Position numbers and translations under genes: made by a program
In this document: positions 11,171 through 60,854 of the stretch, piece after piece
How positions within the stretch are numbered: position 1 is the stretch's first letter
Layout of the letters: every line of letters starts with the position of its first letter
Assembly: GCA_903813345.2 (NCBI GenBank)
Contig: CAIIXF020000001.1
Span: 4,092,001-4,156,000, forward strand
Source: Owenia fusiformis
Taxonomy: Eukaryota > Annelida > Polychaeta > Sabellida > Oweniidae
Length of the DNA: 64,000 nucleotides
Reading direction: 5' to 3'
Notes under the pieces: generated by a model
What the model saw: only the letters and a program-made list of their open reading frames with translations
What the model was told of the DNA's origin: nothing
Databases searched by the model: none

Positions 11171-11189
11171 AAAATCTGTAACCTCTCTC

Positions 11190-12290: not shown

Positions 12291-12329
12291 CGTCAGATGG
12301 GGGGGTGCGATGGGTGCGACCGCACCCCC

Positions 12330-13720: not shown

Positions 13721-13950
13721 AAAACAATTGGAACGTTTGGAAGTTGCATGCATTTGTTAATTCCAAACCAATATAGGGAGTAACTGACCCCCCCCCCTCT
13801 GTCTTACGCGATTTGATTTACGCGGCAAAAAAATGACAATTTTATATTCTCTTTAGTAAGCTAAAAACCGCACCCCCCTTGGAGAAAAGTGTCTTACGGG
13901 CCTGCACGGTATCTGACTTTACCGTTGTCAGGCTATTCCAGTGTGAAAAT

Positions 13951-15166: not shown

Positions 15167-18100
15167 GAGATTGGAGTTTGAAGGTCAGGGATGACAAAAT
15201 GTTGGTTGCCCACCTTAGGGCTATACCTAGTACTCACCATACTACTCAAACATGTATCTGCTCAGGACACAGTCGACTTGTACATCAAATATTTCCAACC
15301 TAATCCAGCTATGACAGATAGTGACAGTTTCATAGCTGTACAACTTGAATTAGGAGTCGACCTGCAAGGGGCAGCTACCCTCGAGGGGCCTCAGAATTAT
15401 ACACTCAAGCTATACCTGTCAACTGATGATATAATAGATCCAGCATCAGATTATGAGGTATTAAAATTCAATGTAAATACATGTATACAGGGTGACACAA
15501 AGTCAAACAATCTTAATCTTTAATTAACTCAATTCAGTAATTCAATTATGATGGAATCTTAATGAATTTTCTTGTACATATCAACACATGAAACAGTGCA
15601 GTAATTACAAACTGTACCATTATGGCTTTAAGATTGAAAGAGTCATGTTTTTCGTCCTTCACATTTTCGTGTCACCCAGTATTAATCCTCTTGTTTCTTT
15701 TTTACCTATATCATGTATTGCCATTCAAAAATTGGATTTACCACAAAACTACATGTAATAGTATTTACGAATATTATGCAACAAAGGATTACAGGTTACA
15801 AGATACCCATAGATAAAGATTTCAGGATCATGACGAATACAAAATTGATAGAATAAATATAATCCTTTGGTACACACTAATTTATTTTTTGAGATTTTAT
15901 ATACTTGTATTATCTTATACCGGATCTCCTTCATGTAATGTTTCCAACATTTGCCTTATATTTCCATCTGTATACTGTATTTTAGCTTAATACTGTCCCA
16001 GCCTCATTTTCCCAGATAGAAGAGACACATGAGTTCACAGAATCAGGATTTCTAGATCTCTCTGGCACAGGTCTCGGTATACCAGCTCTGCACCTTGATG
16101 CTTCAACTGAGAAATACTGTGGGGCTACATACATAGGAGTCTTTGTTGATAGTGAGTGCTTACTTGCATTTCATGTGGGGTACATGTTTGTTAGGTTGTT
16201 TTTTTTGTCTTGTATGTCAGTTGAATGAGTATTTTCTGAGTTTATTTATATACATGTAATGTACAGTATTGTTACAACCTCTTATGCAAGTTCAAGGACC
16301 TCTTATACATGGTCAAATCTTGTAAATTAAATACAGTATCCTGATGTGCTTCAAAAATAATTACTTACATCTATAAGTGTATGATATTAAGTTGGCAGGA
16401 GAGACAGGTGCCCAATGTTAGACAAATGAAATGTGCTGATGTTTGCATTTGCAGATGGAGGTGGAATATATGAGACACATGTAGAGAACAACTGGAATGC
16501 ACAACCATTGAAGATAGTTTGCCCTGGGGGTAAGTAAAGACAGTTTACCATCGAAGAGGGGGGGGGGGGTGGCAGAAAAGATAATCTGCCCTAGGGTTAG
16601 GAAAGAAAGCTCTGCTCTGGGGGTAGGAAGGGTATTCTGCACTTGGGGTAAGTACATGTAAAGATAGTATGCTCTCACCAGGGGTAAGTATAGGGATAGA
16701 GTGCCTAGGGTGTGATTAAAGAAAGTCTTCCCTAGGTGGTAAGAAAAGATACTCTTTCCTTTGGATGAGTAAAGATAATCTGCCTTGAGGGTACCTAAAG
16801 TAAATTATTCAACATTTTATCTGATTTATTCCAAAATACATGCAATTATGTTTGATCTATGTGTTTTAGATATATTCTCTATCACTGATGTATCTGTTGA
16901 CTTGGGCACATATCAGACTGAGCTGTTCCCCAGTGCCTCCACTCCTGTCACCCTTAATGCCAAAATCTGCTTCATGGACTCTACCAGGGATTTTCTCCCA
17001 GAGGGAGAGAACAACTACAGAATCAGACTCTTTATGCACACACACAGTGATTTCCTCACTGGTATGTATATAATCACTGCCCCCAGGATTCTGTGTTTGC
17101 AGAGCGCGGACGGAATTTGCCTCTGCCCGCGGAATTGCAGAATCAACTATTTTGGTCAATTTCCGCGGAATTTTCCGCAGAATCCATATATTTTCCAAAA
17201 GTTTAAAAAGTCAGTCTTACCTGTAACAATTTGACACGTTTTCAGTCAAATCCCTTGCAGAAATAACCCAAATTATGCGAAGTGAAAATTCTAAACGCCA
17301 TCGTTTGATTTCTGCCGTTAGATGGCAGCATGTATGTAGTGACTGACTACCTGACTATCACGATATTTTCCCGTTTACTGGTTCGAAAACCATTAGTTTT
17401 TCTTTCGGTTCTCGTCAGAAAGTTAAACAAAGACATAAATTAATAACAGTTATTTATATTATTTAGTTATTGATCGAAAACTTCGAACTCCAATGAGATA
17501 TTACACTTAAAACCTGATTTACATATATCGTGATTCCCATTATGCGCCCGATCCTCCGTGTTTGAAGTTTCGAAAAATGTGAAATTTGAAATAAAATCTG
17601 AATAAAACATTTAAAATGGATCATGTTTTTAGAATATATGATACTGTTCTTGTTAAACCAATCTTGATTTTTTTTATAATAACCGCAAAAAAATGCCGCG
17701 AATATCCGCGGAATTTCTGCAGAATTAGCCCTTTCTTCTTGCAGAATTCACTAATTTCACTTGCAGAATTGAGCATTTTAACTTGCAGAAAACTGGGGGG
17801 AGTGTATAATGATGTTCAATAAATATCTCAACTTAAACCCCCCTTTAAGTTGTACATTTTTCTTGGTCTATTGCTGTTCATCCCATGTACCTCTCTTAGA
17901 TATGAACCACTCGAACTATAAGTTGGAGTTATTTTAGTCAAAGATTTTCAATGTTACACAAACAATGATTTCATGACATCATTCTATTGATGAGCTTATA
18001 CTTAACCATGATATATTTGAATTTATCCTACTTTTTCAACTTGACTACTTTTCAATTTTTTAAAAAAAATGTCCACCAAAGAATGAAGAAATTATTAGGC

Positions 18101-21100
18101 AGAACAAATTATTGGTTACTTATGTAAACGAAGGAATAAGTTTCCAGAAACACCATGTGACCCCACCGTATAGTGCCATTTTAAGGTAATCATGAAACTC
18201 AAAACAAGTTAATAAGTGGAATGGAGAAATCTGACTCGATCTTTTATTTTTTTCTCTTCAGGCAGTCCCCTGGAAGTGACACAACCTGGTGGACCCATTT
18301 TTCCTGTTGGTGTGTCCCCATTGGACTCTCTATACAACAGTCAAGTGGTCTTACTAGATGGTATGCGCATGACTATCAGTGGGGATAAATTCGCTGCAGA
18401 CAACATGTATACACACCTTATTGTGCATGTGGATGTTTCCACAGATTCTGCCACATTAGATGACATACGAGGCAATAACTTTAGGGCTATCCCTATTGTT
18501 GTGTCTGGATTCTTACCAACTCGTAAGTTAACAGTTCATTTCATTTTCACCTCACCACCATAAGTGGTGACATATTGTTATAGTGTCCAACTTTTTTGTG
18601 GATGGTGTTCAGGGTTCGGCGTCTGTAACAAATTACAGAATATTCTACAATACAATTCTACAATATCACATTCGAGTTTTCATAAAATATGTGTTGCTGA
18701 ACCTTCTTATTGTTAAATTGCTGCCATACTGGATAGCCATTATATGTAACAGTACATGTATATGCCTTGTATTTGTATCATATACATGTATACAGTATCT
18801 TGATTTTTCAGAGCAAGTGGATTATCAGGTGCTTGAGTTTGATGTGGATCAGGATACGATTCTTGCTGATGGGTCCTTTCTTCCACGTAAGTTATTGAGT
18901 TATCACATATAGCAAACAGCATGAAAAGTGTGACATATTCTTCAAAAAAGTGCACTTGCAAAATTAAAAATCATTCTTTCACTCATTTATCATATACTCA
19001 ACAATTTATAACAAATCTACCATCGCTTGACCATGCTCACTATTCTGGTTTATGCCATTCCTCAAATCAAAAAGAAGTTATTTGGAGTAATCTGTCAATG
19101 TCAAATCACATAGAAGAAAGTTCAAGCGATCTGTGTACATAGGGTGTATTTTTGTTTTGATTTTTTCTGCAGAAACAGACAGAGACTTTGATAATGCCAA
19201 TGGCTACTATACAGTGAACGTAGGGACAAGTACATTGTCATTTGGAGGCAGTGTTATCCTAAGTGGGGCATTGGCAGGCAACATGAAACCGTTACTGTAT
19301 TTTTCCAAGGATGACATGTAAGGAAATATTTGCTACCCTTCTCAAGAATGCAACTTTATCAACACTTTTTTAAAAACAGATAATGTTTTATATATTTTTT
19401 TTATATCTTATATATATTTTTTTTCCGTCAGAAAAACTACAAGACTACATTTTCTAGCATTAAGTAGCAAGTAGTCATTTCACATTTTCACATGTTTATT
19501 ATGGCATTTTACAGGGGAATAAAAACAGATATTTTAAATTGGGCTACATAAGAACTTCTCAATTTAATTTATTTTTTATTTTCCCAGAAATTGCAATTAA
19601 AGTGGTCATAATTTTGCTTTATGTACAAACATTAAATCTAAAACTAAAAATCTGTTCATTAACTTTCAGCTTTGATGCATTAGACATCCAGTCCAACATT
19701 AGTCTAACTGTAGCTGATCAAGGCTCAGTGCCTGATAACAATGACAAGTATATAATAATGGTTGAAGATGATGCGCAAGCTATGCCAATGCCAGATGACC
19801 CGAACATGTGTGGAGCCATATATTCTATAATCTACCTCGACTTGGTGGAGCAGACAGGAGATAACAATGAAAAGTTAAAGCATAATAACTTTGGGAAGAA
19901 ATTGTTAACTCTACAATGTGATGATACAGGTCAGTAACCTAATTGCGGTCACAATGGTAAAAATATGAAATATAGATTATGAGGTGTGAAATTGAAATGA
20001 CAAAAGTAAGTAAATTTGAATTTTAAAAAAAATGAAGTAATCACATCCTTGCCATCTCAACCCTTATTCCAATGGTCCAAGGAGGTGCCTCTTCTGACCA
20101 ATGAAAATTAATGCCACTTACAAATTTTTTCAGATTCCCTTGGATTAACTGATCTGCAGTTGACAAACTCATTTACCACAATGTGGCTAGATGTAGCCAT
20201 GCCAGTTGAGTTTTCTGTCGCTGTGTCTTGTACTGCGTCAAACTGTAGTGCTCTCACCAATTCACAGGTAGAGTAGACAAAATTATGTTATGTGTTGTAT
20301 TTAAGACAGCTCTACTTTTTATTTCTTTGATTGTAAAGTAAACCGTTTGTGGATCAGTAAAAATGATTGTCAACCAAATTGAGTGATTTATAATATTACC
20401 CCATTCAAAATGTTTGTTATGCAATCTTTTAAATATTCTCTATAATATTTATCAGGTTAATATTAAGATTGTACCTTGTTTTCTATGCTATAGGTGAATT
20501 TTCAACTTGAGCTAGCTGTATTTGACCACGAGACAGATCAGAGTACAGTTCTTGCAACCATAGCAACCAACTCTGACACTGGTAGGTTTCCTTACCCTTG
20601 TACTTCCTCATTATCATTTTCATTGGTTTTTTGGTATTATCCTTAATTCACATCTTTTGTCATTGAATGAATATTTACAAAAGGCTATCTGTTTATAATG
20701 TGATAAAAACATTGATGAAAATGTTCATGTGGCTTGTATGGTAACTGGACAACTTTAATAATCAACATCATTATTCATGTATGACAGAGGCCTATTCTGG
20801 AGATGGCTTACAAAGTGACTTGACAGGGCGCCGGGCAGATGTGACATTTACGACTGAATTGACCTTGACCTCAGCGAGCTGCTCTGATGGAGCGGAACAT
20901 TCATTCCAACTCACCGTCAAAGATGCCTCGGGGAGTGAGGACACTTGGACAGATAATAATATGATAAGAGTGCCAATTCCCAGGGTATTCTGTGATTCCT
21001 CAGGTATGGTAACTTAAGTGTCATATATTGAATGAACAGGTTTTAGTACAAATTTTATAATACAAGTTTGTATCCATAATATAAACCTGCAGTTGGATTT

Positions 21101-39100: not shown

Positions 39101-42100
39101 ATGTGGACCTGGTGAGTACATATAGATCACAGCTTTTATGACATCACCAAGATGTGTTGACATATTGTTGTGGTATTGGGTTTGGTTTCTGTAACAATCA
39201 TTACACTTATCTAGATGGTTACATTTTGTCATGTTGATGTATAACTTATCATGCAATCTAATTCTTATGAATATTATTGTGTGTGCATATTTATTGTACA
39301 ACTTCAAGAGGTCTAGAGGCATGTCAGGGCAATTTATGCTTTGTCAGGTTGAGATGCTTGCACCAACATTCTAGACCAGAGGAACCAACAGCTTAACCTG
39401 AACAAATGACAAACTTTAACAACAGTTACTTTAGCTATGGGTCACACACCGACTCGACTCTTGTAATTTCATACCACTATGTTTTAGTTAAAGCTATGAG
39501 AGATCTAGTGGCCCACCCTGTAAAAGTCCTAGGTGGTGAAACACTCCATTCTGGTCGCCCTGTATACTTTAGTCTTCCTATTGAACTGAGGGGCACACCT
39601 CTAAACCCAATGAATGCTGCTCCTAATGCAACCAGGTAAACCTCTGCTATATTAAACTGTTAATAGTTGTAATTGGCACTCTAAATAGCAAATATCCGTA
39701 AATATATATCTTGTCATCCCGATTCCAGGAAATCTACTTAATGGATTTATTTCTAGAGCTAATTGACTTTTTGGCAGCCATCTTGCATTCTGGTGGCCAT
39801 TTTGGATGTTCTTAGATTAATCTTGTCATCTTAATTCCTGGAAAACTGCTTAACGGATTTACTTGAAATTTTACACATGTTACATGGTAAGAAGTTCTAG
39901 AACTGATTAACTTTTTGGTGGCCATCTTGCTTTCTGGGTCATCAAACCCACACTGCTATGTTTCAGGTACGATATTGTTCACCCTGTGAATTCATTTCAG
40001 GTTTCAGTTTAGTTTCTATTTGTCAGAGGATGACAAATTATCAGTTGATGACTTGAAGATGATGTATAAACCTTCAACCAGTATAAGCAGAATGATGGGT
40101 CTAGGCCTCCAACAAGGTCTCACAACTCTTAAGGAAACATTCTATGGTCAGTACTGTTTTTGAATTAATATGTCTGTTAAAACATAAGGTGTGAATCTCA
40201 GCTCTTCAGCAAAATTCTATCTAATCAAAATCAGTATCTAATTGATGTCATAGGAAAAGAACATCAGACTTAATAATTATGTCACCACCAAAAAGTGGTG
40301 ACATATTGTTATGGTCTCCGTTTTTTTTGTGGCGGCAGTTGGCGATCAGTGGTTGGCGTCTGTTACAAATTCTTAAAACTTCCAATAACTTAACAAATAC
40401 TGTTTAGACTGACTTCAGTTTTTTTCAAAATCTTCTGCAAGTTTTCAGAAGTTCAAATCTGACTTAAGATTTTAGATTTGACCTTCATTGACCTTCTTAA
40501 GGTCAAAAAAGATCTTATTTCAACTTGCTTCAAATTGACCAACTTTTTTTCAAAATCATCTTCAGGCTATCAGAAGTTCAACTTGCTTCAAATTGACCAA
40601 TTTTTTTTCAAAATCATCGACAAGTTATCAGAAGTTCAAATCTGACTATTGATAGACCTTCAATGACATTCTCAAGATCAAAAAAAGATTTGACCTTCAA
40701 TGACCTTCTCAAGGTCAAAAATGTATTTTTTCAACTTGCTTCAAATTGACCATTTTTTATCAAAATCATCTACAAGTTCTCAGAAATTCAAATCTGACTT
40801 AAGATTGAACTCATAATATTGTGAGCAACTACATTGTAGGTGGTGATATTTTGTCATGTTAATGCCTTGTTTACATCTTTTATGAAGGTTTTGTTAATAA
40901 TCCCAGTACAATATTAGAATGTTAACTAACACCAGGCCTTGAAAGTGAAGTGTATTTTCATATTTTTGTAGATATTCAATGTTCTGTACAAAGGGTTTTT
41001 CCTAAACCATGAACTCAAATATTGGCTATTAACCCCCTTTCGTTCACGATGTACATTTCTAGAATATTTTCATATTTATCATATTCTTTACATGTATTAT
41101 TAGGTATTAGACTCCCAAATGATCAGTGTGGTAAACAGTTCTTCATTACCTATATTGATGACATGGATGACATCAAGGAGATCTCAGAGAACAACAACAT
41201 GGCTGTCACACCTGTCACCATTCACTGTCAGGGAGGTGAGTAACTGGGTAGAACAACAAGCAAAAAGTAAATGTTAATCCCTTGGTATATTTTCACACAT
41301 GGCATATATGCATGTACAATTCTGTAAAACTAATACAATAATGGCAGATCCAATCTTATCTCTTCTGACAAGCTATATCTCAATTGAACTGAGTCAGACA
41401 AAGTTAAAAATTAAGTTGTCAATGCTTGTGTTTTTTCACTTTTTACTTCCATACATATCATATTGTACTTATTTACTACCAATTGTTAAACTTAATTGAT
41501 AATATGAAGAACACATATTTTTTAAATGTTTCTATGTTTTAGATTTGATTGAGCTGTATGATTTAACAGTATATGACTCACCATACACCCTCTGGAACAC
41601 TCACGAATACACATTTAACTTTGATGCTATCCTGAAAAATACTGGACCATCAGACATTGGAGGCTCTTTTGAAACAATGTATGACTGGGTTGTTCTTTTG
41701 TCAGAAAATACTGAACCAGATTTTCGTGATGACATCATCATCAGACCAGATGTTAAGATTACAGAGAAGACTGAGGATGTGATCAGAAAGGGACTTAAAA
41801 GAGGGGACACTGTGAGGTTGAATGATATGACTGCAACGTTAAGCGTTCCTGAATCTCAATGCAATTTGACAACTGTGAACTATCTTTTGATTGGTGTTCT
41901 CATAAACAATGCTGAATTAGGCACGCTCGAGGATCTTATAAAGAACAACTTTAGACCGCATAAGTTGAACGTTGAGTGTCGCCCAGGTGTTGATTTATCC
42001 ATAAAAGCTTTCTCAATACCCTCTGATACATCTCTGGGAGTGGAGACTGATTTTGAACTGATTGTTGAAGCCACTATAGAGGGTGACGCCGATCCTATTG

Positions 42101-45100
42101 ACAGCTTCAGCTTTAATTTCTTCATCTCTGAAGATAACACATTCCAAAGTGAGCGGGATATTATGGTTGATCATACAATTCCTGCTATTTATTTTGCAGC
42201 ACCTCCCATAGTGGATTCAAACACTGAAATAGACTTCAGTGGGGTTGTAAATGAGGATCCCTCTTTGTCCACTGGTTTAACTCTGCCGAACTATTTGGAT
42301 GTGAAATTTTGCGGAGGAGTTTATTTGTTAGTTGTTTTAGATGTGAGTTCAGAAGTATCAGAAGTTTTTGAAGGAAACAACATTCATGCTGCTGATCTGT
42401 TTATTCCTTGCTTGAATGACCTGTTTAGTTTGAGTGATTTCAACTTCATAGCCCCACAAGAGAAAATACAATATAATTTGCCAGCTAGCTTTAACTTTAG
42501 TGTGAGAGTATCATGTGTGTCTTCAGTTGATTGTGCAACACTAGTCAATGGGGATAATTTTCAATTGGAAGTCCTTGGCTTTGACTCAGTTAGAAACCCA
42601 TTAGCAGGTGTTACGCCCATGATCATTGATGCATCATGGGCTAATGATGAAGCCAATTCACTGTCCCCAGAAGATGCACTGGATACAAGCTTTTCTGCTA
42701 CACATTCAATTGAAATTCAAATATCAGGCTTATTTATAGTATCAGACTTCAGTGCATGCGTAAGAGTGAAATATATTGGTCTGAAAGTTGTGAAAGGAAC
42801 AAGTTCTGAAGTGACTGCATTAAACGATGACACATTCAATCTAGATAATTATGTCATGAGCCCTTTTGAAATCAGCTGTACAAACTTCTCTGTCGATCTG
42901 GCCGTTGGTGTGGTTGACTTCCATGATGCATCATCAGAGGTTAATATAACGGCTGAAAACTTTGAAATTCATTTTGGAGTATCCATTACTGGTGAAAACT
43001 TTCCAGGAGAACCCCAAGGTCACAATATCTTCTATGATATATATATTTCGGAAGATGACGTTTTTGATGAAAATGATTTCAAGCTGGATTATGAAATTCC
43101 GGATGATTTGGCAACTTTGGTACCCGATCCCTTAGAAGTTAGTTCTTTCGCCATGTTTTTTTCCATCCCTTTCAAGCAAAGTGATATGATCCAATACTGT
43201 GGGCGTGATGTGTTCCTCCTGGTTGTACTTGATACTGATAATAACCTAATTGAATCAGATCTCACAAATAATGTCAGGGAAGTGTCCTTTACTCTGATAA
43301 ACTGCCAAGATGGAGTTTATCTGTACACTAAGAATCTAACAGTACCCAACATAGTGTTCTCTGGAGAGGATGTTCCCATTGAAGTAGGATTTGAAGCACT
43401 TTTGCTTGGTAGTGAAGGCCTAGAACCCGATCCCCCAGAGAAGCTGGTTGAATTTCAGTTCAGCATTGTTGATAGCATTGAAGATCCAAAGATCAATGTG
43501 TCTGTGAATTATACTGTACCTGAGGCTAACATTGAAGCCATACCTGCTGAGAGTGAGACACCCCTAAGACTTAACACTACTGCCAATCCCGACAAGATCC
43601 CCAGCTCTATTGTAATCCCAGCTCATGTATCTTTATGTGGGCATCAATTGTATATGAAGGCAGAAGCTATTATTACAAGTGGAAATCCAGATGAACTTCA
43701 TACAGAAAGCTATGCTGTCTATCACCCCACCTACATCAACTGCCCTGAAGACCAACTCGCTCTCAACAATCTACAAATAAAATGGCTGCCGGAGTCTTTA
43801 TGGTCTGAATCTACCAATCGAGTTGACTTTAAGCTTGACGTTATTAACCAAGGCGCTATGATACCATTGAATGAATATGCCAGAAAGTTCAAGATTCTTA
43901 TATACTTCTCAGTTGATGAGACATTATCTGAGGAAGAAGATAGTGTCTTAGAGGTGTACTTTGCTGGTGATGAAGGAAGACGATACGAATGGTATGGTGC
44001 TATAGACCAGGATGAAGTTATTGAAACTCCTCTGCTATCAGGTTGGTCTCTACTATGACATTGACATTTTTTCTAATATTATAAAAAGTGATGTATTTGG
44101 ATTTATAGATTTTTACACGGGAACTCCTGCATGTATGAGTAGTGACCCTAGCACAGGATTTCATTCTGTGTTTACATTAATCAAGTACTGCAGTTACCGT
44201 GATATGAGTATTGAAAATGATATGAGTGATAACAACGTCCACGGTATTGCCAGTATTTAAGATGCTAATAATACATAATATTGATGCAGTGTTTATTGAG
44301 TTTATACTCTATGTCTTTTTACTTCTGTTTTGTAGGGGAACTCAGACTAGATTCATTTGAACAGTGCAGTGAGATAAAGGAAAAAAGTATGAAGCCTACA
44401 TGGTTCTTTAAGCTATTGGCAGAAGATGAAGCCCATTCGGTGTATAAAGATAATGATGTGCTTGAGTATGCCCTGGATCCAGACATGTTGCTCTGTGAAT
44501 TTGGTAAGATACACTGGGATCCTGTCCTTAATCCTATATGGTGTTCAGCCCCACAATTCTACTGAACATTATACAATATTAGTTTAAGGGGTTTTCTTTA
44601 CCTCAATCATACCATAAGAGATGACTATTGAAAATGCAATACCAAATGATTGCATGTTAAATAATCTCAAATTCTGTTTCAGTGAACATGGACCTGTCTG
44701 TAGTAGATGTAACTCTGGTAGGACCCGATGGTAACAGGACACAGGAATTCTACTCGGGCGTTCCTATTCACTTTTCTGTAGATGTTGCCCATGATCAGGT
44801 ATTTATGAACCATAACTATTAACTATGTTCCCAGATATCATCAGGGTACATCCATAGTGTATATGGTACATACATAGGTACATGTAGTGTTGAAGGCAGG
44901 ATCTTAAAATTGTAGAGTTGATTCATAGCCAATGTAAATTTAACCCTATCACTGGACTTCATTTAAACAGTTGAAAGGAAGTATGTGAATGAAGTATTTT
45001 GTTGAGGCATTTGGTGAGGCTTCATTCCTGGCTACAAGCCCACTTGCAGTGGCTTATCTAAAATGTTCATCCTATTTGAGCTTGTCCTCTGTGAGAATCT

Positions 45101-51100: not shown

Positions 51101-54100
51101 TAACTTTTATTTAGTACCTCTAACATATAAGATCTATTTTTCCCCATCAAGGTATGATGTAAATGACATGCTATTTACATCTTGTGAGTTTCAATGAAGC
51201 ACGTTTGATTTTATAAAAAATGCCAAACTTTGTGACAAAGAATTTTATCCTGCTTGCAGCGAGGAGACGAACCGGTTCTATTGCTCCGAACCGGTTCGTC
51301 TTCTCGCTGCAAGCAGGAGGAAATTATTTGTCACAAAGTTTGGCATTTTTTATAAAATCAAACGCGCGTCATTGAAACTCACAAGATGTAAATAGCATGT
51401 CATTTACATCATACCTTGATGGGGAAAAATAGATCTTACATGTTAGAAGTACTAAATAAAAGTTATCGTGAAAATGAGACAGTCATTCTCGAGAGAAAAG
51501 AGCATAAATGCGCATTTAGAGAGTTTTGGTCCGTTTAAAAATCTGTAAAAAATTGGGGTACTTAAAAGCATCGGGAGGCATCATATATTTCAAATTAGAC
51601 ACGAGGAAGTCAATATTGAGCAAGTTATGGCTGTTTTAAATTCAAATAAAACCGTTAACCCGTACCGGTCCAGCTTTTGACCCGTACCGGTCAATTTTCG
51701 TTAGCTGCGTACACCAAGGGTGTTAATGCTTTATTTTGTTCTAATTAAGGCAATACTGGTTGGGAGATTCAACCAAGTCTCAGTAACTCCCCATACATGT
51801 TTGAATACTCATTCTACATGCTGGGAATGACTGGTGTGGGACAAATTATGTTCAAACAAGTAGACTATGACATCCTAGCTAAGAAAGACGCAATTAATGG
51901 CGGCACTTATGATGGGAAAATCATTGCCTTGACAGGTAGATTTTTTTTATTTAAAATGATAATAGGTTTACAATTACATGGTTGACAAGGAAGCGTTCTC
52001 AAGTGCTAATTCGTACAGCATAGATAGCATAAGCACTCTAACAGTTTAGTAAAAGGAACTTCATTTTGAAAAACATGTATGTAAAATTCAAGTTTAGATA
52101 GACATGTATGTATTAAACAGTAGACAACTGCTAGTAAAATATATACATTTATTCAACTGCTGATTTTAACAAAATGAAATCTTCACAAGTTCACAATAAT
52201 AATTTCAACATTTTAGATGCATCAGTTGGTTTGGATTTGTCCCCAGAGGATTACTTGTTCTTCTGTAACGCCAATGCCATTGTGTTAACAGTGAATATAG
52301 ACACTAAACAACAAGTGCTAGAATCCAATGAGGGAAAAGCCAATCAGTACAGTATTGAGGAGGCAATATTTGACCAGGATGAATGTACAGGTACCTGAAT
52401 TATATATGATACATGTATATAGAGGTGTCCACCAAGTCTCTTACAATTACAATACAAGTCTGTGTAAGGTGTAAAGGGACTTAATGGACACCCTGTATGT
52501 TCAGAGAGAATAGTGCTAAGATATAGGTCCAACGCAAAGGAGCCAGTAGTTAATCCTTATGGACACCCTGTATATTCTTGATAAGGAGGGATGTATCCGG
52601 GGTCTTGGAAACTTTCAAGACTCCATACTCCATTATAACTTATGTTTTTGGAAATGCCTTATATCTCATACTGATAGTCCTTAAGTTTGTTCAGGAATGG
52701 GATGTTGAATTACCATTTTAAGTGCACTTTTTCAAAGTCCAATATTGCCACCTTGTACCAGTGAGTACCACATAAATCTTGTCATCAAAATTCCAAGAAA
52801 TTCACTCACCTGTTAAACTAAGATGTTCACAGGATATATTCAGTGCCAAGATCTAATTAGAGTTTGGGCAGTAAATTACTTGGCAGACATTTTGAATTTT
52901 TGGTAAAAGTGCAATATTTATTACTGTGTGACATATTGATATTACACAATGTATTACTTTAGATATGAAAGACCTGTATGTTGAGAAATGGATGTTGACA
53001 TCTATGAAGAATGATATAGTGGAAACCAACCACACATATGACTACAGTCTTCAGGTTAATGCCATCCTTACCACCAATGAGGCACTTGACAATGTCACTA
53101 CAACAGATTACAAGCATTTCCTATTGAAATATTTCCTTTCGTTTGATGCTGTTTATGACGACAATGATACTGAATTGGTCGTGCCAATAACTCCAAACCA
53201 AGCTGAAGAATTAGAGGTATATTTGGAATCTTTGTGCATGCAGAATCTAAGATGTCAATGCATGTTTTGAATTAGAGGGAGGAGTCTATTGACAGTCACT
53301 GAATTTTTTATGTCTGTGTTTTGGGGGCCTAAAAGCCTTTTTTCCAATTGAAATTGAGTGGGAGGTTATTATTATTTACTGTACAAAACAAGTTAGAATA
53401 AATCATATGCATGTACAACGATCATTCAGTAACTATTTATATGTTTTAGAAGGCTTATACTGTACAGTACCTTATACTGTATTAAGTATAAAGTCAATTG
53501 ATCCTTAACTTTCTTTTGGCCAAACCAGTGATAATCACAGCCTTTCATAATGACTTTCTTTCACTTAGAAACATGTTGAACAAGAGACAGTGGGGACATT
53601 TGACCTGGATGAGGTGGGTCTAGTGATCCCCCTTACAGCTGAAGTGTATCCTTACTGTTGGAAGAGGGTGTATCTCGGGGTTCTCGTTGACTCAACAGAT
53701 GTACAAATAGAAGTCACCGAAGATAATAATGTCGGCATGCTTGAGATAATACTGGACTGTTATGGTGAGATTTGCTGATATAGTAAAATACTTTTTGTTT
53801 TTTTAATAGATTTGCATATTTTATGCCCTGTATACTCATCATCTTGTATATCATATCCAAATCACAAGATAACCAAAACTAGATAAATCAAAATGCCTTT
53901 ACCATGGTGCGAAGCAAACCAGTGGCATTAAAGCTTTTTCCAAATATGAGTATAAGACCAAATTCAGGACCAGCCCTTTAACACAGTGCCTTGTTTTACT
54001 TTTCAGACTTATTGAATGAGTGTGAGGTTGGCTATGCAAACTGCCATGAGAATGGATATTGCACTGACTTGCCATACAACCTCTACACAGAGTATGGTGT

Positions 54101-57100
54101 TGGCTTCTCCTGCCACTGCAAACCAGGATACACTGGGGATGGTATCCAATGTGAAAGTAAGTACATACAACATATTAATCACATTGTGTAGTAAAGTCAC
54201 TACACAGGTATGGAGTACACTTCACAATATTGTAAGTTTTTAAATACCGAACAGTACATACATTCAAGGGTAATTTAAATTTATTTTTGACATTTTGAAT
54301 TGAACCTGGTATACTTTTTTGATAATATCTTTTCCATATGAAAAATGAGGAATTTTTCTTCAAAAGCTTAAAGGATTATACTTTTTCATCCCAATTGTAC
54401 AATATACACATGATAATAACTAATATGAATATTCATTTATTATTTTCATTGGCAGATATTGATGAATGTGATGAGACAGAACCAACACATACCTGTGATA
54501 TGATACCTCACTCAACATGCTCTGACTTACCTGGTTCTTACATCTGTGAATGCAACCAGGGCTTCACACAGTCCGTAGGGGTACAGGGGGAACAGGTCTG
54601 GCATTTAATTATGATTCCTAGTAATCCAAGATACATACAGTTAAACCTTTTTATTATCAGAAAACTACTTGGACTGGCCAAAATTATTCTGATTGACAGG
54701 GGTTCACATCGGAGTTCTTTTAACATGAAAATGGGATCAATAAAAAGCATTCACACTGAGAGGTATCCAGATAAGAGAGATGTTCGGATATGATGGTTTT
54801 ACACTGTTACTGGAAATTCCCCCATTCTTGAAAGGATGTATGTTCATTCCATTTTATCTCATCTTAATGCAGGTTTGTCTTAACAATGATGAATGCCAAA
54901 GTGGTGACAATGACTGCCATGAGATGGCTGAGTGCATTGACCTAGTTGGCCCACCTTTCTATAGATGTCAGTGTAAGACTGGATTCATAGGCAATGGCAC
55001 ACATTGTGAAGGTAGCCTTATTAATGAATTATAGAAAACTGTGTATTTGTTGAATTGTTTGACATAAATCAAACGTAATTTGAAACTAACATGCTACAAA
55101 ATGGTCACAGCACCGTCATTAAAGGTTTGTAGGAACTATCCAACGGGAATATTATTTCTAAAATGGAGTATAGATGTAACACTCGATTGAGGGGATGAAA
55201 CGCACTTTGGGACAACAATGATGTTCTTACTAGGGGGTCATTAATAGAAAGGTCATGTTAAGGATTCCTATGTCAGTTGTTGTAACTATAGATATAATGA
55301 TATCATAGTAAGAAAAAAGGGATTTTAGGAATTCTCAATTTTACAAAGTTTCTGTCAATGGCCCCCTGACCTCTTATTTTTTATTGAAGATGTGATTGAC
55401 TGCCGTGAGGACTCATGCAACTATAATGGCATATGCAAGGAACACCCAGCTGGCAATGCTATCATATGTCACTGTAATGACCTATATGAAGGGGACTTCT
55501 GTCAAATAGGTACAGTATATGTATTTGATACAAATCTCTGTACATGTAGAAATAGCTATCCCTCACAAAAAATGGTTTTCAATGTTATATCACTTCAATT
55601 TCAATTTGTTTATTTCACAAAACACATACAATATACATATACAATGAGTGGGTGACATTCCTTTATATTATATTAATAGAACCACAATTTTTCCAAATAA
55701 GCTCTACATTGCAGTTCACGGTGGCTGGAGCGAGTGGAGTGCTTGGTCCGAGTGTCTGAGTGAGTGTGAAGAAGGCAAAGAGACAAGGACAAGACAATGT
55801 GATAATCCTGCTCCTAAGAATGGCGGTCGCAATTGCCCTGTCGTGAATAAGGTCGGGGATCTCCAGGAGAGACAATGCGATCTTGGAATATGCACAGCAG
55901 GTACATTACTTCTTTTGAATTTTTTTTTCATTTAGAATATTTATTTCATTCAAATGAAATTTTATATTGATATTGTGGAATACTTTCTGAGAAAGTTGTC
56001 TCTTAGTAAGTTAAGATGTATCAAAATTAATTTTTTAGTTCCACAAATTGTTTTTAGAGCCTGTGAGCTTTAGTAAATTTCAGGTGTGTAACTTACAAAT
56101 GAATTGACTTTGATTAAATGACCATATTCTGCATTATTAGATGCCAGTGTCCATTGGTGTGATGCAGTTGATCCATGCTATGTGGGCACACCTGTTGGGG
56201 CATATGAAGCAGGAGGCGGGGAATGTTACAATGGTAAAGGTGGCGCTTCATTCATTTGTACCTGTCAGCCTGGCTACAGAGCCATCTATGATGACATAAC
56301 TGGATTGTTTATTCGTTGTGAAGGTAATCACAATTAATTTTGCTATACATATACCCTGCTTTCGTCTATACTTCTCTTTCTGTACAGTGTAGAATTGAGT
56401 GAAATACATTTTTACTGGGAATGAATATGAGCTTATTTTATATCATGCTATGAATCGTTTGCTACTCTTCAATCAATATATATGATATTATACTACAAAA
56501 CTCAGTATCCTATTATTTAAGAATACATACCATATCCTATCCCAGCAAGGAATAACATGTTTATTTAGAACTTATACACTTATACATGTACATAATTATA
56601 GTAAAAGAGGTTATGTCACTATGACGTGAAATATGCCTGAGTTCTCCCAATATAGGCCGACCTTGGGAGGCTCTATATTTGGGCAAGAACGAAGGCATTT
56701 CACGTCATAGTGACATAACTGATGTATTACATGCCTTTGTTCCCATGGTTACTTTGTATCAATGACGTGACGTCATGATATTATCATGGTTATTAAAGAA
56801 ATCTAATATCAAAACGAGGTAAGCGGGCTATATCGGGGTAATCGGGCAATATCGGTGGATATAGCTCGCTAACTTTCCCATTGACTTCCATACAAATGCT
56901 TCGCTAGGTATGTAATACATGAAATAAGTACATTGTATTTCTATATAACATCTTCAGATATTGATGAGTGTTCTGAAGGAGTGGCAGGGTGTGACTATGT
57001 CTCCACTTGTCACAATGCCCCAGGGACTTACTCCTGTCAGTGCTGGGAGGGATATGAGGTGACAGGTGACAATGTTTGTATTGGTAAGTGTGTTGTTCTT

Positions 57101-59170
57101 ATATACATTTAGTTTTCTTTATGAAGGTTAACCTCTTGAATACCAGTGCATTTTTCATTTTTGCTTACTTTGTCATATTTCTATCTTGAATTCTTGATAC
57201 AATGCTTGATGTTCATGTTGGAAATATTACCAAACATGGAAAAAGTCCACACATTTTAATTCATATTTTGTGTAAACGTTTTGTCAAAGTTAGAGCAACC
57301 TTAGAGAGAAATTCTAGCCTTGCCCAAGTCGGTCTCTTTTACTTATCTTGATTTCTAATTTTTTTCTATTATGACCGCCAGTAATATTCAAGATCAGATA
57401 AGGAAAAATACCGACTTGGGCAAGGCTAGAGAAATTCTTGTACTGATAGATCTGTCAATATGGGTGTTCAAAGGGTTATTGATGCTTCATTGTAGGCTCT
57501 GTATTCTACATTTTAAAATCTTTTCCTTGTAGATATTGATGAGTGTGCCTTGGAGATTGATGATTGTGACAGAGACACTATGTCATGTGACAACAAGCCT
57601 GGCACATACGAATGTCACTGTAATGAACAATTCAAGCAAGAGAAAAAGAACAACAAATGTCAGGGTAATTTTTGACTATGTTTCATTGACTCATATGATT
57701 TTGTACATTTTTGTTTTTTCTACATAAGTCATGAAATCTGTACAGTAAAACTTATCAAGTGGAACACTTTTGAAAGTGGAACACATCTATAAGTGAAACA
57801 CTTCTGAACATCCTGTTAAACATAACTTAACATGAAATGAACCTCTGTAAGTGGAACACCTCCTAAGTTGAACACTACTTTGAAGTGCCAAAGGTATTTC
57901 AATCACACAGGTTTTACTGTATAAGTATATGATGTTTGCAGAGAACCGTCTGTTTCCCTATGGGAAGGATGCAGGTGATTACATGGTGAATACATTTAGT
58001 GTGGCCACTAGTGAGAGGGTCTCTAATCTCATCCCAATACCACATGGTCTTCCTTTGTTTGGTGGCGATCTCATCGAGAATGTCTATGTAAGTAAGATCA
58101 TATCCATTGTCTTATCTTATCAGAGGATGTCTGTTTGCTGTCGAGTATGCTCATCCAAAAACATTGATATTGAAAAACAATAGACAACAGTTTTAAATCG
58201 AGTTAAATGGTTCAGACTGCAAATAGTTTAACACATCTGTATCAAACCTTAATAAAAAGTCACTACTCCAAGACCAATCTTTGTATTTTATGTCCTCAGT
58301 TACAATAATACAATAAATATACCTTGTTTTGGAATGCTTTCTACAGTTTAACATGCTTGTGTCTCAGGTGAGTGAGAATGGTGTGATTGTGGCCACCAGG
58401 AACAATGTGGACCAAAACAACAAGGAGACATTCAGGAATCCTGTTAACCTCAACAGCCTAGAACTAAGTGATGAAGTGGCTGCAATCATTGCACCACTCT
58501 GGGCAGATAGTGCCTCTGATGACACTGATGGTTCAAAGGTGAGTATGGGGTAGCATTGACCACTTAAAGAGATAGTCATGTAATACTGTATGTAGACCAA
58601 TTGGCTCTTACCTAAAATAACAATGAAATTTAACTGCACATATGATTTAAAAGCACTTACGAACATTTTTTCAACTGAGTTTCTATGGACCTCAGTTTGG
58701 GATTTTTGAAATATTTCTCAAAGGGAGTCCTATTTATTTATATCTCATTTTAGATTTGGATTAACACATACAGGAATACAAGTTTACCATTATTCTCAAA
58801 TGTGAATAGACTGTTTTCTGAACATGTCAACCCAGGAGTAGAAATGACATTCATCCTGAAGGTCACTTGGGAGAACATGAGACCACATTATAGATGGCAG
58901 CCTGATGAGGTAACTTCAGTTGGGTAAACATTTATTTGAGTAATACATCGAGTAATTTGAATAATACTTCATACCATAATATTAAGCAAAAACAAGTCTT
59001 TTCTTAATTTTGGCCATATTGGTAGTTTTGGGGTATATTAAAAGTTCATGAAAATTAATTTGTATGTTTCAGATGAACACATTCCAAGCCCTGCTGGCAA
59101 CTGACTACAGGAGCTCATATGTCATGTTCATCTATGATGATGGGGGTATGAACTGGAAACCCTTGTACAG
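15167..59170 (+). CDS. Giant secreted CARDB-like/EGF/TSP1/NIDO matrix protein, 3' end outside window
   Basis: Seventy-nine coding exons join in one frame (one local shift at 48084-48280), giving about 16.3 kb of coding sequence or some 5,400 residues. The start is ATG at 15191, 24 bases after an acceptor. Domain order: signal peptide, about 32 CARDB-like repeats to 53764, four EGF-like modules, one TSP1, three EGF-like modules, and part of a NIDO domain. Most introns are phase 1 between modules and phase 0 inside them, the classic pattern for shuffled extracellular domains. Cysteines are regular and no membrane segment was seen. NIDO plus EGF occurs in basement-membrane and mucin-like proteins. 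CARDB is mainly prokaryotic and adhesion-linked. A secreted matrix, mucus or adhesive role is inference. The gene continues beyond 59170 past a transposon-filled intron. Confidence 0.85.
15191..16529 (+). CDS. Giant gene: signal peptide and CARDB-like repeat 1
   Basis: Exons 15191-15457, 15986-16151 and 16455-16529. Residues 1 to about 25 form a signal peptide: MTKC, then hydrophobic LGLYLVLTILL, then HVSAQ with likely cleavage before DTVDLYI. Repeat 1 begins there and shows YTLKLYLSTDDIIDP, KYCGATYIGVFVD and the closing ETHVENN...KIVC. The D(S/T/N)-x-E-x-x-x-NN ending is the CARDB signature. The middle exon is 166 bp, exactly as long as its counterpart at 7428-7593 in the minus-strand gene. 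Confidence 0.85.
16870..18522 (+). CDS. Giant gene: repeat 2
   Basis: Exons 16870-17061 and 18262-18522. The repeat lacks the CG motif but keeps the strand pattern and an RGNNFRAIPI ending. DLGTYQTELF and GVSPLDSL match DVGYGQTEMY and GVSPLLGL in the minus-strand paralogue, and the second exon is 261 bp in both genes. The intron between holds a 730-bp transposon starting 13 bp after the donor. Confidence 0.8.
17075..17804. mobile_element. 730-bp inverted-repeat element with GCAGAATT-type subterminal repeats
   Basis: The left end is CACTGCCCCCAGGATTCTG. The reverse complement of the right end is CACTCCCCCCAGTTTTCTG. TATAAT flanks both sides exactly (17069-17074 and 17805-17810), read as a 6-bp target-site duplication. 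Each end carries several copies of gc(a/g)gaatt or ccgcggaatt, probable transposase-binding repeats. No coding capacity was seen. The superfamily is undetermined. Confidence 0.75.
18551..18640 (+). repeat. Fragment of the GTGACATATTGTT interspersed repeat family
   Basis: The fragment reads caccaccataagtggtgac, then atattgttat, and matches the start of the longer copy at 40279. It lies in an intron of the giant gene. Confidence 0.5.
18812..19929 (+). CDS. Giant gene: repeat 3
   Basis: Exons 18812-18886, 19173-19317 and 19670-19929. The repeat contains MKPLLYFSKDDIFDALD, then MCGAIYSIIYLDL and an HNNFGKKLLTLQC ending. It pairs with FCGAVYAILHVDN in repeat 3 of the minus-strand gene. One intron is phase 2, unusual for this protein. 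Confidence 0.8.
20134..21003 (+). CDS. Giant gene: repeat 4 (vicinal-cysteine type)
   Basis: Exons 20134-20267, 20494-20581 and 20788-21003. The N-terminal part carries the motif VSCTASNCSAL, also present as VLCTAADCNSL in the minus-strand gene. Related motifs recur in later repeats (CTQAYC, CVSSVDC). The ending is TWTDNNMIRVPI with a terminal Cys. The vicinal cysteines may form an extra disulfide within one sheet. Confidence 0.8.
21475..24335 (+). CDS. Giant gene: repeats 5 and 6
   Basis: Exons 21475-21623, 21814-21952, 22665-22772, 23001-23105, 23234-23307, 23649-23847 and 24147-24335. Repeat 5 has FALYLSVDKVLDMYED, RFCGSQVYVGAYLDSF and ETLESNNVIW. The 74-bp exon 23234-23307 begins LTPS and matches the last, also 74-bp, exon of the minus-strand gene. 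Homology between the two genes stops after this exon. Repeat 6 has FDIKVYLSADNTVD and KLCGSVFLSC but a divergent end. Confidence 0.8.
24380..24860. repeat. Possible decayed inverted-repeat element
   Basis: The left part reads ggcgtcagaagggggaggg. The right part, inverted, reads aggtgtcagaaggatttgcc, followed by a G-rich run. The two edges resemble degraded terminal inverted repeats about 480 bp apart in an intron. No target duplication is clear. Confidence 0.3.
25064..25236 (+). repeat. 25-bp tandem repeat, about seven units
   Basis: The unit gtggtaatataatgacatca plus ctgtt repeats about seven times. The last four copies are identical and the early ones are varied or shortened. It ends about 70 bp before exon 25309-25566. 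It is a polymorphism-prone minisatellite. Confidence 0.9.
25309..29617 (+). CDS. Giant gene: repeats 7 to 10
   Basis: Exons 25309-25566, 25827-25997, 26255-26499, 26939-27158, 27404-27537, 27948-28114, 28301-28502, 28875-29087 and 29479-29617. Strand landmarks include NLGLWAG, VMFYISLDDQLD, LYLFIKVVDNVF and LWLSLDATLD. Repeat 10 closes with a textbook CARDB end: YCGSVYLIVEIDSG then ESDETNN. The exon at 25827 must end at 25997 before GCAAGT, a GC donor, because the GT three bases upstream breaks the frame. Confidence 0.8.
26563..26658. mobile_element. 96-bp pogo/Tc1-like MITE
   Basis: Ends CAGTAAAACCTCTCTTATCT and, inverted, CAGTAAAACCTGTATATCTG are flanked by TA on both sides, the Tc1/mariner-pogo target signature. 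It lies in an intron of the giant gene. Related copies occur at 27.7, 33.7, 38.7 and 57.7 kb. Confidence 0.75.
27683..27868. mobile_element. Decayed pogo-like MITE
   Basis: It contains aaaacctgtaaagtggaaca, repeated 'agtggaacac' phrases and a 'ttttactg' right edge. It is a diverged member of the same family as the copies at 38684 and 57743, without clean ends. Confidence 0.5.
30033..33409 (+). CDS. Giant gene: repeats 11 to 13
   Basis: Exons 30033-30184, 30357-30639, 30973-31104, 31497-31652, 32006-32176, 32504-32764 and 33242-33409. Repeat 11 is of the HLLIGVRY...ISNNFAAFPISC type, lacking CG. Repeat 12 has LCTGDLSLKLTLDTNDD then ETDEANN. Repeat 13 has YCRPGTYIYVMVDSGKTVD then DDSNNFAW. The donor of exon 31497-31652 lies inside a tandem duplication that spans the exon-intron border. 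Confidence 0.8.
31607..31837 (+). repeat. Tandem repeat spanning an exon end and its splice donor
   Basis: The exon end aagtgatcaatgccgaag is followed about 46 bp later, just inside the intron, by aagtgatcaatgctgaaa, and again by aagtgatccatgg near 31704. From 31711 the intron holds about four copies of a 33-bp unit (agctccatggagctaggcc, then tacatgtagttaag). The unit resembles the coding stretch gttaagagctctgtggagct. The array therefore grew from coding sequence, and the functional donor sits at a repeat junction. Confidence 0.8.
33703..33790. mobile_element. Decayed pogo-like MITE
   Basis: It carries ataaccgaacacctttctta and 'gtgttcagattagacagatttactg'-like sequence similar to the copy at 26563-26658. 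Ends are eroded. Confidence 0.5.
33823..37120 (+). CDS. Giant gene: repeats 14 to 17
   Basis: Exons 33823-34128, 34569-34697, 34886-35353, 35647-35831, 36009-36174, 36455-36819 and 36955-37120. Repeat 15 is carried by one 468-bp exon. Landmarks are YKFQVYIADDNQME, LEFYLTDDSSS and KYCGHTYLIVQVDT. The repeat 16 ending is ERYENNNEKS. Repeat 17 is a CG-less type with LVCVEKPGD and LHNNCKAVKI. A and non-A types largely alternate here. Confidence 0.8.
37516..41235 (+). CDS. Giant gene: repeats 18 to 20
   Basis: Exons 37516-37728, 37957-38145, 38293-38584, 38948-39111, 39488-39635, 40001-40146 and 41104-41235. Repeat 18 has AIFLSLDEELNVT and LCGDVFVFFLLDSEQD. Repeat 19 is the vicinal-cysteine type (VMCTQAYCNYV). 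Repeat 20 has FSFYLSEDDKLSVDD and QCGKQFFITYIDD, then EISENNNMAVT. The intron before the last exon holds a 590-bp interspersed repeat. Confidence 0.8.
38684..38824. mobile_element. 141-bp pogo-like MITE
   Basis: Left end CAGTGAAACCTGTAAACTGG and right end inverted CAGTAAAACCTCTTAGTCGA are flanked by TA at 38682-38683 and 38825-38826. The interior has repeated 'tagtggaacac'. Confidence 0.75.
39134..39245 (+). repeat. Short copy of the GTGACATATTGTT family
   Basis: It starts 'gtgttgacatattgttgtgg' and ends 'ttacattttgtcatgttgatg', matching the edges of the 40279 copy with the interior deleted. Confidence 0.5.
40279..40868 (+). repeat. Interspersed repeat with internal tandem structure
   Basis: It begins with the small hairpin caccaccaaaaagtggtgac and ends ggtgatattttgtcatgtta. 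The middle repeats 'ttcaacttgcttcaaattga', 'caaaatcatc' and 'gaccttcaatgaccttctca' about three to four times. Shorter relatives are at 18.55, 39.13 and 50.7 kb. The class is unknown. It lies within an intron of the giant gene. Confidence 0.65.
41543..44041 (+). CDS. Giant gene: single 2.5-kb exon with about five repeats
   Basis: One uninterrupted exon encodes about 833 residues, roughly five repeats (21 to 25) and the start of the next. Elsewhere each repeat is split over one to four exons. Within it are YLLIGVLINNAELG, FCGGVYLLVVLDVSSEVSEV, SCVSSVDC, YCGRDVFLLVVLDTDNNLIE and LCGHQLYMKAEAI, each at the expected place. The borders are a normal acceptor (tatgttttag) and a weaker donor (GTTGGT). 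The likely history is local loss of all internal introns, for example by recombination with a cDNA copy. Confidence 0.9.
44109..47513 (+). CDS. Giant gene: repeats 26 to 28
   Basis: Exons 44109-44243, 44336-44503, 44683-44798, 45128-45311, 45605-45781, 45974-46134, 46724-46899 and 47404-47513. Repeat 26 is atypical, with many Cys and little CARDB ending. Repeat 27 has FTVELYLSQDAILDEFD and FCGETHVIANVIDL. Repeat 28 is the CG-less type ending VISNNYEFVDL...DC. Introns at 46135-46723 and 46900-47403 contain nothing I could identify. Confidence 0.75.
47707..48989 (+). CDS. Giant gene: repeat 29, with an apparent 1-bp frameshift
   Basis: Exons 47707-47798, 48084-48280 and 48854-48989. Coding similarity runs through the middle exon: ITLQGGATVGKK first, then KFLEFQLYLSDDANIDEDDF. 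These two parts are in different frames. The exon is 197 bp where 198 is needed. The jump falls near 48117-48124 in a purine run (gaagaaaggagt), and without it the frame meets TAG. The last exon has YCGHVYLIPYLDSGDE then EIQEHNN. The cause may be an assembly error, an allelic mutation or a missed splice choice. Confidence 0.65.
48330..48515 (-). repeat. Dispersed repeat fragment shared with 13.6 kb
   Basis: In inverted orientation this matches 13600-13690: both hold gcgtaccagatggttgcaaa, then 'aaatacaacc', 'aaaattttc' and a G- or C-rich run. It lies in an intron of the giant gene. Confidence 0.6.
49117..52390 (+). CDS. Giant gene: repeats 30 and 31
   Basis: Exons 49117-49268, 49443-49746, 50249-50371, 51750-51935 and 52217-52390. 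Repeat 30 is CG-less (QVCNYEVDPIETGENILIF ... AIHVEC). Repeat 31 is degenerate, with FFCNANAIVLTVNIDTK and no NN ending. The intron between 50371 and 51750 carries a nested pair of repeats, including the 879-bp palindrome. Its acceptor (ttctaattaag) follows the insertion by about 20 bp. Confidence 0.75.
50705..51745 (+). repeat. GTGACATATTGTT-family copy split by the palindromic element
   Basis: The left part is 50705-50843 and the right part resumes at 51723. When the palindrome and one TTAAT are removed the edge reads gtcatcttaatgctttattt, close to gtcatgttaatgccttgttt in the intact copy at about 40853. The palindrome therefore inserted into an older repeat. Confidence 0.65.
50844..51722. 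mobile_element. 879-bp near-perfect palindromic (foldback) element, CAC ends, 5-bp TSD
   Basis: Left arm 50844-51278 and right arm 51288-51722 are each 435 bp and are reverse complements with only a few mismatches. They flank a 9-base loop (tattgctcc). The ends read CACCCTTGGTATACGCAGC and, inverted, CACCCTTGGTGTACGCAGC. TTAAT flanks both sides exactly (50839-50843 and 51723-51727). There is no coding capacity. The high arm identity implies youth or ongoing conversion between arms. It sits in an intron of the giant gene. Confidence 0.9.
52963..53764 (+). CDS. Giant gene: last CARDB-like repeat (32)
   Basis: Exons 52963-53216 and 53569-53764. The repeat is well preserved: KYFLSFDAVYDDNDTE, then YCWKRVYLGVLVDSTDVQIE and VTEDNNVGMLEIILDC. 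The next exon opens directly with EGF-like sequence, so the repeat array ends here. Confidence 0.85.
54007..55509 (+). CDS. Giant gene: first EGF-like block (four modules)
   Basis: Exons 54007-54156, 54456-54595, 54873-55011 and 55390-55509, each one module. Module 1 reads NECEVGYANCHENGYC then FSCHCKPGYTGDG. Module 2 has the calcium-binding start DIDECDE and SYICECNQGF. Module 3 has NDECQSGDNDCHEMAEC then YRCQCKTGFIGNG. Module 4 reads DCREDSCNYNGIC then CHCNDLYEGDFC. Six-cysteine spacing is present. The 2-to-3 boundary is a phase-0 intron, while the others are phase 1. Confidence 0.9.
55715..55900 (+). CDS. Giant gene: thrombospondin type 1 domain
   Basis: One phase-1 exon encodes a TSP1 repeat: GGWSEWSAWSEC with the layered-tryptophan WxxWxxW motif, then CEEGKETRTRQCDNP, NCPVV and QCDLGIC. 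The WSxW context is a typical site for C-mannosylation and the domain usually binds matrix or glycosaminoglycan. An earlier acceptor at 55679 would put a stop in frame, so the acceptor at 55714 is chosen. Confidence 0.92.
56141..57664 (+). CDS. Giant gene: second EGF-like block (three modules)
   Basis: Exons 56141-56323, 56958-57083 and 57533-57664. The first is a long, atypical cysteine module (HWCDAVDPC ... CTCQPGYRA). The next two are calcium-binding type, each starting DIDEC: CHNAPGTYSCQCWEGYEV and CDNKPGTYECHCNEQF. All are flanked by phase-1 introns. Two foldback repeats sit in the introns between them. Confidence 0.88.
56606..56915. repeat. Foldback repeats (hairpin elements) in intron
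   Basis: Sequence ggttatgtcactatgacgtg near 56609 returns inverted as cacgtcatagtgacataac near 56700, forming a long hairpin over about 110 bp. A second inverted pair, gatgtattacatgcctttg near 56722 and ggtatgtaatacatg near 56908, encloses the next 190 bp. They are probably one or two MITEs. Confidence 0.65.
57316..57427. mobile_element. 112-bp foldback MITE with 11-bp direct repeats
   Basis: Ends AGCCTTGCCCAAGTCGG are exact inverted copies. The duplicated flank AGAGAAATTCT is present at 57305-57315 and 57428-57438. Long inverted repeats with 9 to 11-bp duplications suggest a Mutator-like or foldback origin. Confidence 0.75.
57743..57919. mobile_element. 177-bp pogo-like MITE
   Basis: CAGTAAAACTTATCAAGTGG at the left and inverted CAGTAAAACCTGTGTGATTG at the right are flanked by TA (57741-57742 and 57920-57921). 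Its right end lies about 20 bp before the acceptor of exon 57942-58087. Confidence 0.75.
57942..59170 (+). CDS. Giant gene: NIDO domain (incomplete)
   Basis: Exons 57942-58087, 58347-58538, 58754-58909 and 59073-59170. The order fits NIDO: LFPYGKDAGDYMV, then VSENGVIVATRNN, then AAIIAPLWADSASD, then IWINTYRNTS, then the hallmark MNTFQALLATDYRSSYVMF and IYDDGGMNW. NIDO is the domain of nidogen, tectorin, SNED1 and mucin-4. The last exon ends in phase 2 before GTAGGT, so further exons lie beyond the LINE outside the window. Confidence 0.9.
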
Positions 59171-60840: not shown

Positions 60841-60854
60841 GTTTGTTGTGTATT

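Follow-up and report, generated by a model that had tools for sequence, protein, structure and literature searches.

The 64,000-nucleotide stretch of Owenia fusiformis DNA analysed here (the window) probably contains the first half of a single, very large gene, and its product is best explained as a tethered MUC4-type protein with an acidic CARDB-like stalk, a reading that we favour with some reserve. The predicted single-pass membrane protein would comprise, in order, a signal peptide, 32 repeats, four EGF modules, a TSP1 module, three further EGF modules, NIDO, AMOP, and VWD (GDPH) domains, ∼20 EGF modules, another TSP1, a cysteine region, a transmembrane segment, and a tail of ∼230 residues. 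If this is true, the stalk of a MUC4-type protein is replaceable by a long, folded, and strongly acidic repeat rod, and CARDB, a domain known chiefly from bacterial and archaeal proteins, forms a large-scale tandem array in an animal. Genes of such size and make-up can be missed, since the sole deposited protein found for this locus is partial. The preliminary description had proposed one giant animal gene joining about 32 CARDB-like beta-sandwich repeats to EGF, TSP1, and NIDO modules, and the results presented here support that proposal. Two features go beyond that description: the gene model continues past the window, and a paralog, placed head to head, begins inside the window on the minus strand.

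Gene model and the deposited partial protein

Exons were modelled with an iterated, splice-aware Viterbi (dynamic-programming) procedure trained on the long exon and built without an exon list from the preliminary description. The model yields 79 exons on the plus strand up to position 59170 with zero in-frame stops, the same number of in-frame exons as had been counted before. After the start of exon 1 was placed manually at position 15191, an ATG, and exon 2 was trimmed, the product encoded in the window by the 79 in-frame exons (15191–59170) has 5474 residues and begins with a putative signal peptide, MTKCWLPTLGLYLVLTILLKHVSA, recognized by eye. Exon 49 alone encodes 833 residues and five full repeats. 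Scanning of the window returned zero Rfam and zero tRNA matches. Features are listed in the table.

Table. Features located in the window, with the basis for each assignment.
Feature	Position	Strand	Basis
Paralog, first 13 modelled exons; the gene goes on left of the window	1006..8210	-	Exon model; four small upstream exons dropped as spurious
Interval between divergent genes; candidate shared promoter; paralog signal-peptide exon not confidently found	8211..15190	.	Exon models
Exon 1, with the ATG, the putative signal peptide, and the first part of CARDB-like repeat 1	15191..15457	+	Sequence reading; signal peptide by eye
32 CARDB-like repeats, residues 26–4880, exons 1–67	15266..53764	+	Exon model, repeat profile
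Exon 49, 833 codons, intron-less: repeats 21–25 and start of 26	41543..44041	+	Exon model, Pfam
Repeat 22, predicted structure: mean pLDDT 82, best PDB match CARDB of PF1109 (3idu, 2kl6)	41983..42414	+	Structure model, 32 window rows
Stretch covered by P0001	42457..59170	+	Deposited partial protein
Exon 50 of the model, doubtful: missing in P0001	44109..44243	+	Exon model vs P0001
Four EGF modules, exons 68–71; last exon shorter in P0001	54007..55545	+	Exon model, Pfam
TSP1 module	55715..55900	+	TSP_1 23.7 bits vs 21.6
Three EGF modules, exons 73–75	56141..57664	+	Exon model, Pfam
NIDO, first four exons; completing exon at 64062–64323 (extended), outside the window	57942..59170	+	NIDO 73.8 bits vs 25
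Remnant of a non-LTR retrotransposon with a reverse transcriptase frame, within the intron that follows exon 79; outside the gene product	59530..63681	-	RVT_1 108.5 bits

When the repeat region was used as a protein query, 1269 candidates were scored and a single one of them was returned at E <= 0.001. This entry, P0001 ("unnamed protein product, partial [Owenia fusiformis]"), has 3023 residues, begins within exon 49, and spans repeats 23–32, EGF, TSP1, EGF, NIDO, AMOP, VWD, and EGF; NIDO, EGF_CA, VWD, and TSP_1 all score above their respective Pfam cut-offs in it. Twenty-eight of the 31 window exons from 49 to 79 are present whole in P0001, and 26 of the 31 have both junctions; the differences are that exon 50 is missing, exon 71 ends earlier, and exon 49 is partly covered. 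At its C-terminus P0001 has, after an EGF, a short exon reading DMNIQLSIQ followed by a stop, at 72.8 kb in extended coordinates. The genome paper for O. fusiformis, in its available text, reports a 505.8 Mb assembly whose annotation combined transcript data, ab initio prediction, and protein alignments (PMC9977687), and P0001 is assumed here to be a product of that annotation. At the level of sequence and by agreement with the deposited gene model, repeats 23–32 are joined to EGF, TSP1, NIDO, AMOP, VWD, and EGF; support from this outside gene model covers repeats 23–32 and onward, and repeats 1–22 are modelled here alone.

Layout and identity of the repeats

The 32 repeats are 134–199 residues long, ∼150 being typical, and the longest contains the doubtful exon 50. 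In a leave-one-out profile every one of the 32 outscores the best of 100 shuffles of itself, with repeat boundaries that had been chosen with the aid of such a profile and of exon ends. Three columns are conserved in at least 90% of the repeats: the aspartate of an S-x-D motif, a cysteine in the middle, and the final cysteine. Introns of the model lie at 24 of the 32 repeat ends, all 24 in phase 1; the coincidence of introns with ends, but not their phase, is partly our own choice, because the ends were set at nearby exon ends around the final cysteine. The remaining eight ends fall inside exon 49 (five) and inside exons 21, 25, and 40 (one each). Over its 4855 residues the array is strongly acidic (D+E 15.6%, K+R 5.4%, net charge -494, pI 4.1; for the paralog described below the net charge is -461), proline-poor (4.5%), and not rich in Ser/Thr (14.9%). 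Repeats 19 apart are unusually alike, for example 4 and 23 or 12 and 31 (25 offsets tested; p 0.001 alone and 0.014 over all), a hint of a possible old block duplication in the array. A regular alternation of repeat types was rejected, as 19 was the only one of the 25 offsets that stood out.

The CARDB-like nature of the repeats, claimed in the preliminary description, is borne out by Pfam for the longer segments. Exon 49 scores 25.5 bits for CARDB (PF07705), above the cut-off of 22.7, over profile positions 67–100, and CARDB is the sole Pfam family listed for this exon up to E 10; P0001 scores 24.2 bits against the same cut-off. Single repeats match weakly (CARDB at E <= 0.1 in 4 of 32, the best 5.8e-4), seven other Pfam families match one repeat each, and four of six paralog pieces match CARDB, all four under the cut-off. 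Comparison of predicted structures with CARDB folds gave a divided result: the model of repeat 22, the better of the two, has the CARDB beta-sandwich fold and places CARDB at the top of both fold lists, whereas CARDB is absent from the 50 best fold matches listed for the model of repeat 24 (6 rows, pLDDT 63), which include integrin alpha and others. CARDB, as in PF1109 of Pyrococcus furiosus, is both the best fold match and the best Pfam match of the Owenia repeats, which differ from it in being ∼150 residues long, compared with 101 profile positions, and weak one by one, and in having a conserved cysteine pair and the phase-1 exons of an animal gene. The repeat profile had zero matches up to E 10 among PDB sequences, NCBIfam gave two chance-level matches to one repeat each, and a CARDB family search across the Owenia genome (one genome, five candidates scored) gave nothing at E <= 0.001.

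Archaea are reported to have large proteins, predicted to be secreted, that contain several CARDB domains (PMC8416519, available text), and the available text of PMC6425310 names CARDB in bacterial proteins only. Literature matches for PF07705 are prokaryotic only, judged from titles and the start of abstracts, and among the matches listed for CARDB, in a search with most subscription journals outside its coverage, no animal CARDB protein appears by title. Prokaryotic contamination or recent transfer is rejected, given that the gene has introns and phase-1 boundaries, sits on a contig of chromosome scale, and joins the repeats to EGF and TSP1 neighbours.

The repeats might instead be generic E-set or Ig-like sandwiches, similar for instance to the integrin thigh or to FN3, that acquired the CARDB ending by convergence and do not descend from CARDB. 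The weak scores of single repeats and the repeat 24 fold list agree with this, as does the finding that Spo0M and NPC2, which are unrelated sandwiches, come within 1 Z unit of the CARDB match of the repeat 22 model. Nevertheless, CARDB stands alone and over cut-off for exon 49 and heads the fold lists of the better model, and a motif of the S-x-D...D type occurs in 20 of the 32 repeats and an ending of the C...NN type in 28, so that we regard convergence as rather improbable, though a serious competitor to CARDB identity.

The head-to-head paralog

A second gene lies head to head with the first. Its model starts near window position 8210, runs ∼106 kb leftward, has the same modules, and includes a transmembrane segment near 3994.9 kb; on contig C1, where the window spans 4092001–4156000, the paralog extends left to about 3994400. 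From 171 modelled exons, 30 were dropped by eye as spurious and 13 beyond 3994000 were removed, and the pruned model has 128 exon peptides and 7508 residues (residues at exon joins uncounted). A local profile, run over 184 kb made up of fetched DNA and the window, gave 101 matches above 9 bits, the weakest with E near 0.8, of which 67 are on the plus strand in the main array, 34 on the minus strand at 4042786–4099647, and none elsewhere in this DNA. Searched against the genome (498 Mb, 525 contigs) at E <= 0.001, exon 49 has one further match, on the minus strand ∼37 kb left of the window (5.2e-5, 47% over 51 residues, with one internal stop), and the paralog's own long exon finds itself only.

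Alignments of the two products give identities of 23% over 2931 columns, 26% over 1941, and 32% over 2886, and the C-terminal parts give 33% over 2609. When all 32 repeats are taken together, their best places in the paralog correlate in order at 0.70. For 24 of the 32 the best place leads the second by at least 10 points, and 22 of these 24 are collinear, repeats 12 and 13 being out of order. Since the order of most distinctly placed repeats is kept, the array is probably older than the gene duplication. The VWD motif is GDPH in gene 1 and GGPH in the paralog, and therefore cleavage at this motif may occur in one twin only. Two tandem repeats were also observed: one of ∼22 residues, NDINTYVTGVSMRPDQCNGEYF, in a paralog exon inside the array (C1:4043802–4045070, minus strand), and one of 308 bp in 2.2 copies between the divergent genes (window 12409–13094).

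Continuation past the window, protein class, and proposed working

With 70 kb of downstream DNA fetched, the model extends ∼47 kb past the window and ends at 111502 in extended coordinates, giving a full model of ∼96 kb, 113 exons, 7523 residues, and ∼830 kDa. The downstream run masked 59180–64040, 74320–102200, and everything past 113000 (extended). After the rest of NIDO follow AMOP (32.2 bits against a cut-off of 25 for a piece from beyond the window; absent at E <= 0.01 from the matches listed for P0001 as a whole), VWD (33.3 bits against 22.9, with GDPH at residue 5704), the ∼20 EGF modules, counted by eye, the second TSP1 (29.4 bits against 21.6), the juxtamembrane cysteine region, for which Pfam gave no match over cut-off, a putative transmembrane segment, WVIPVIVVAALLVIVVVLIIAVV, read by eye, and the tail. 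The join across 74320–102200 is one that we infer, because this masked 28-kb stretch carries frames of mobile elements together with three collagen-like genes on the minus strand; the EGF exons on its two flanks are both phase 1 in the model.

A query with the NIDO–VWD region found at E <= 1e-10, besides P0001, the proteins P0002 (Branchiostoma), P0003 (Mya), and P0004 (Biomphalaria), and at E <= 0.001 also P0005 (great white shark). With Branchiostoma floridae mucin-like P0002 the Owenia model shares EGF, NIDO, AMOP, VWD with GDPH, the EGF array, TSP1, the juxtamembrane cysteine region, and, as read by eye, the transmembrane segment and the tail, in the same order. The repeat profile found CARDB-like repeats in none of the four (best score -1.2 bits), the P0002 model beginning inside an EGF with its N-terminus missing. 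The survey of animal homologs for the full domain order, called for in the preliminary description, accordingly recovered the C-terminal half in P0002–P0005 and the complete order with CARDB repeats in none of these four. The searches need exact shared five-letter words and a length window, so that CARDB-bearing relatives can escape them; because the survey is bounded by word sharing, length windows, and database content, restriction to Owenia is not claimed.

By its domains the closest class is that of MUC4-type membrane proteins: NIDO, AMOP, VWD with GDPH, and EGF are all present, with the transmembrane segment and tail seen by eye in the model. Human MUC4 has the core layout NIDO-AMOP-VWD-EGF-TM in common with the Owenia model; in the available text of PMC8660890, MUC4 has a tandem-repeat mucin region at the place in question, and GDPH cleavage in its VWD is putative. 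Where MUC4-type proteins carry a Pro/Thr/Ser stalk, the N-terminal two thirds of the Owenia protein are the CARDB-like array, and since that array lacks the Pro/Thr/Ser-rich composition of a mucin, the protein is not a mucin in the strict sense and would at most work like a tethered one. Mucin4-like proteins of the cnidarian Actinia tenebrosa have extra N-terminal CUB, ZP, or FN3 domains (PMC9080433); like the Owenia protein they combine the MUC4 core with a varying N-terminal part, and CARDB is not named in the available text of that paper. The preliminary description knew of no described protein with this order; its second half is the known MUC4-type NIDO-AMOP-VWD layout, of which the form with the CARDB array is a variant. 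A literature search with most subscription journals outside its coverage found no description of this protein, no mention of CARDB together with NIDO, and none of Owenia fusiformis together with tube and mucin.

The continuation to a transmembrane segment is modelled, and it is repeated in the paralog and in the amphioxus homolog. As the model runs to a transmembrane segment and tail, like P0002 and the paralog, the protein is probably membrane-tethered rather than simply secreted, and the main reading of the preliminary description, a secreted giant structural protein, is not sustained. Under that reading, transcription would stop where the first EGF block ends, yielding a secreted matrix, mucus, or tube protein, and the EGF-TSP1-transmembrane exons farther downstream would be part of another gene or a rarer isoform. 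Owenia is a tube builder, the 28-kb stretch with its mobile-element frames and collagen-like genes splits the two parts, and a shorter, perhaps secreted form is conceivable because the deposited model stops after an EGF. P0001 is labelled partial, however, the EGF exons keep phase 1 across the gap, and the EGF array runs on to a transmembrane segment in the paralog, in P0002, and, by eye, in P0003 from Mya, and we consider the secreted reading unlikely. It is still less likely, and indeed improbable, that the model merged two or more adjacent genes: the sole deposited protein is partial and repeats 1–22 fall outside it, but repeats 21–26 are joined by exon 49, P0001 connects repeat 23 to VWD and EGF, the largest intron within the array by the exon list is ∼1.4 kb, and the paralog keeps the order of most (22 of 24) distinctly placed repeats over the whole array.

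As a tethered MUC4-type protein, the molecule could use its acidic array as a long, extended stalk that binds water and divalent cations, each repeat being closed by a disulfide between the conserved cysteines, and the array could do the spacing and barrier work that falls to the glycosylated Pro/Thr/Ser region in mucins. For a putative binding of di-metal ions like that in 3idu, the feature observed is the S-x-D...D type motif in 20 of the 32 repeats. At ∼4 nm per module the stalk is estimated to exceed perhaps 100 nm. A cut at GDPH, by analogy with the putative cut in human MUC4, would split the protein into a large alpha part and a beta part that stays tethered, so the stalk may be either tethered or shed; likely sites are the surface coat of the worm, its mucus, or a tube-secreting epithelium. 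A more elaborate scenario, which we offer only tentatively, is that oweniids have twin giant membrane proteins, divergently arranged, whose O-glycosylated region gave way to ∼32 CARDB modules in a polyanionic array; this array would have expanded by duplication of phase-1 exons before the twins split, and would build the surface coat or tube secretion with calcium standing in for glycans.

The three collagen-like (GPPG) genes on the minus strand are similar to one another, carry a GGGANYLCLPRDPEWGKTM domain, lie at ∼76.9–80.7, 89.6–91.7, and 98.5–101.6 kb (extended), and are apparently nested in the 28-kb intron. Farther downstream, a possible start of the next gene, with a secretion-like leader, AYPGGPPVGACQHMFPVEHN, is seen at extended ∼113942–114144.
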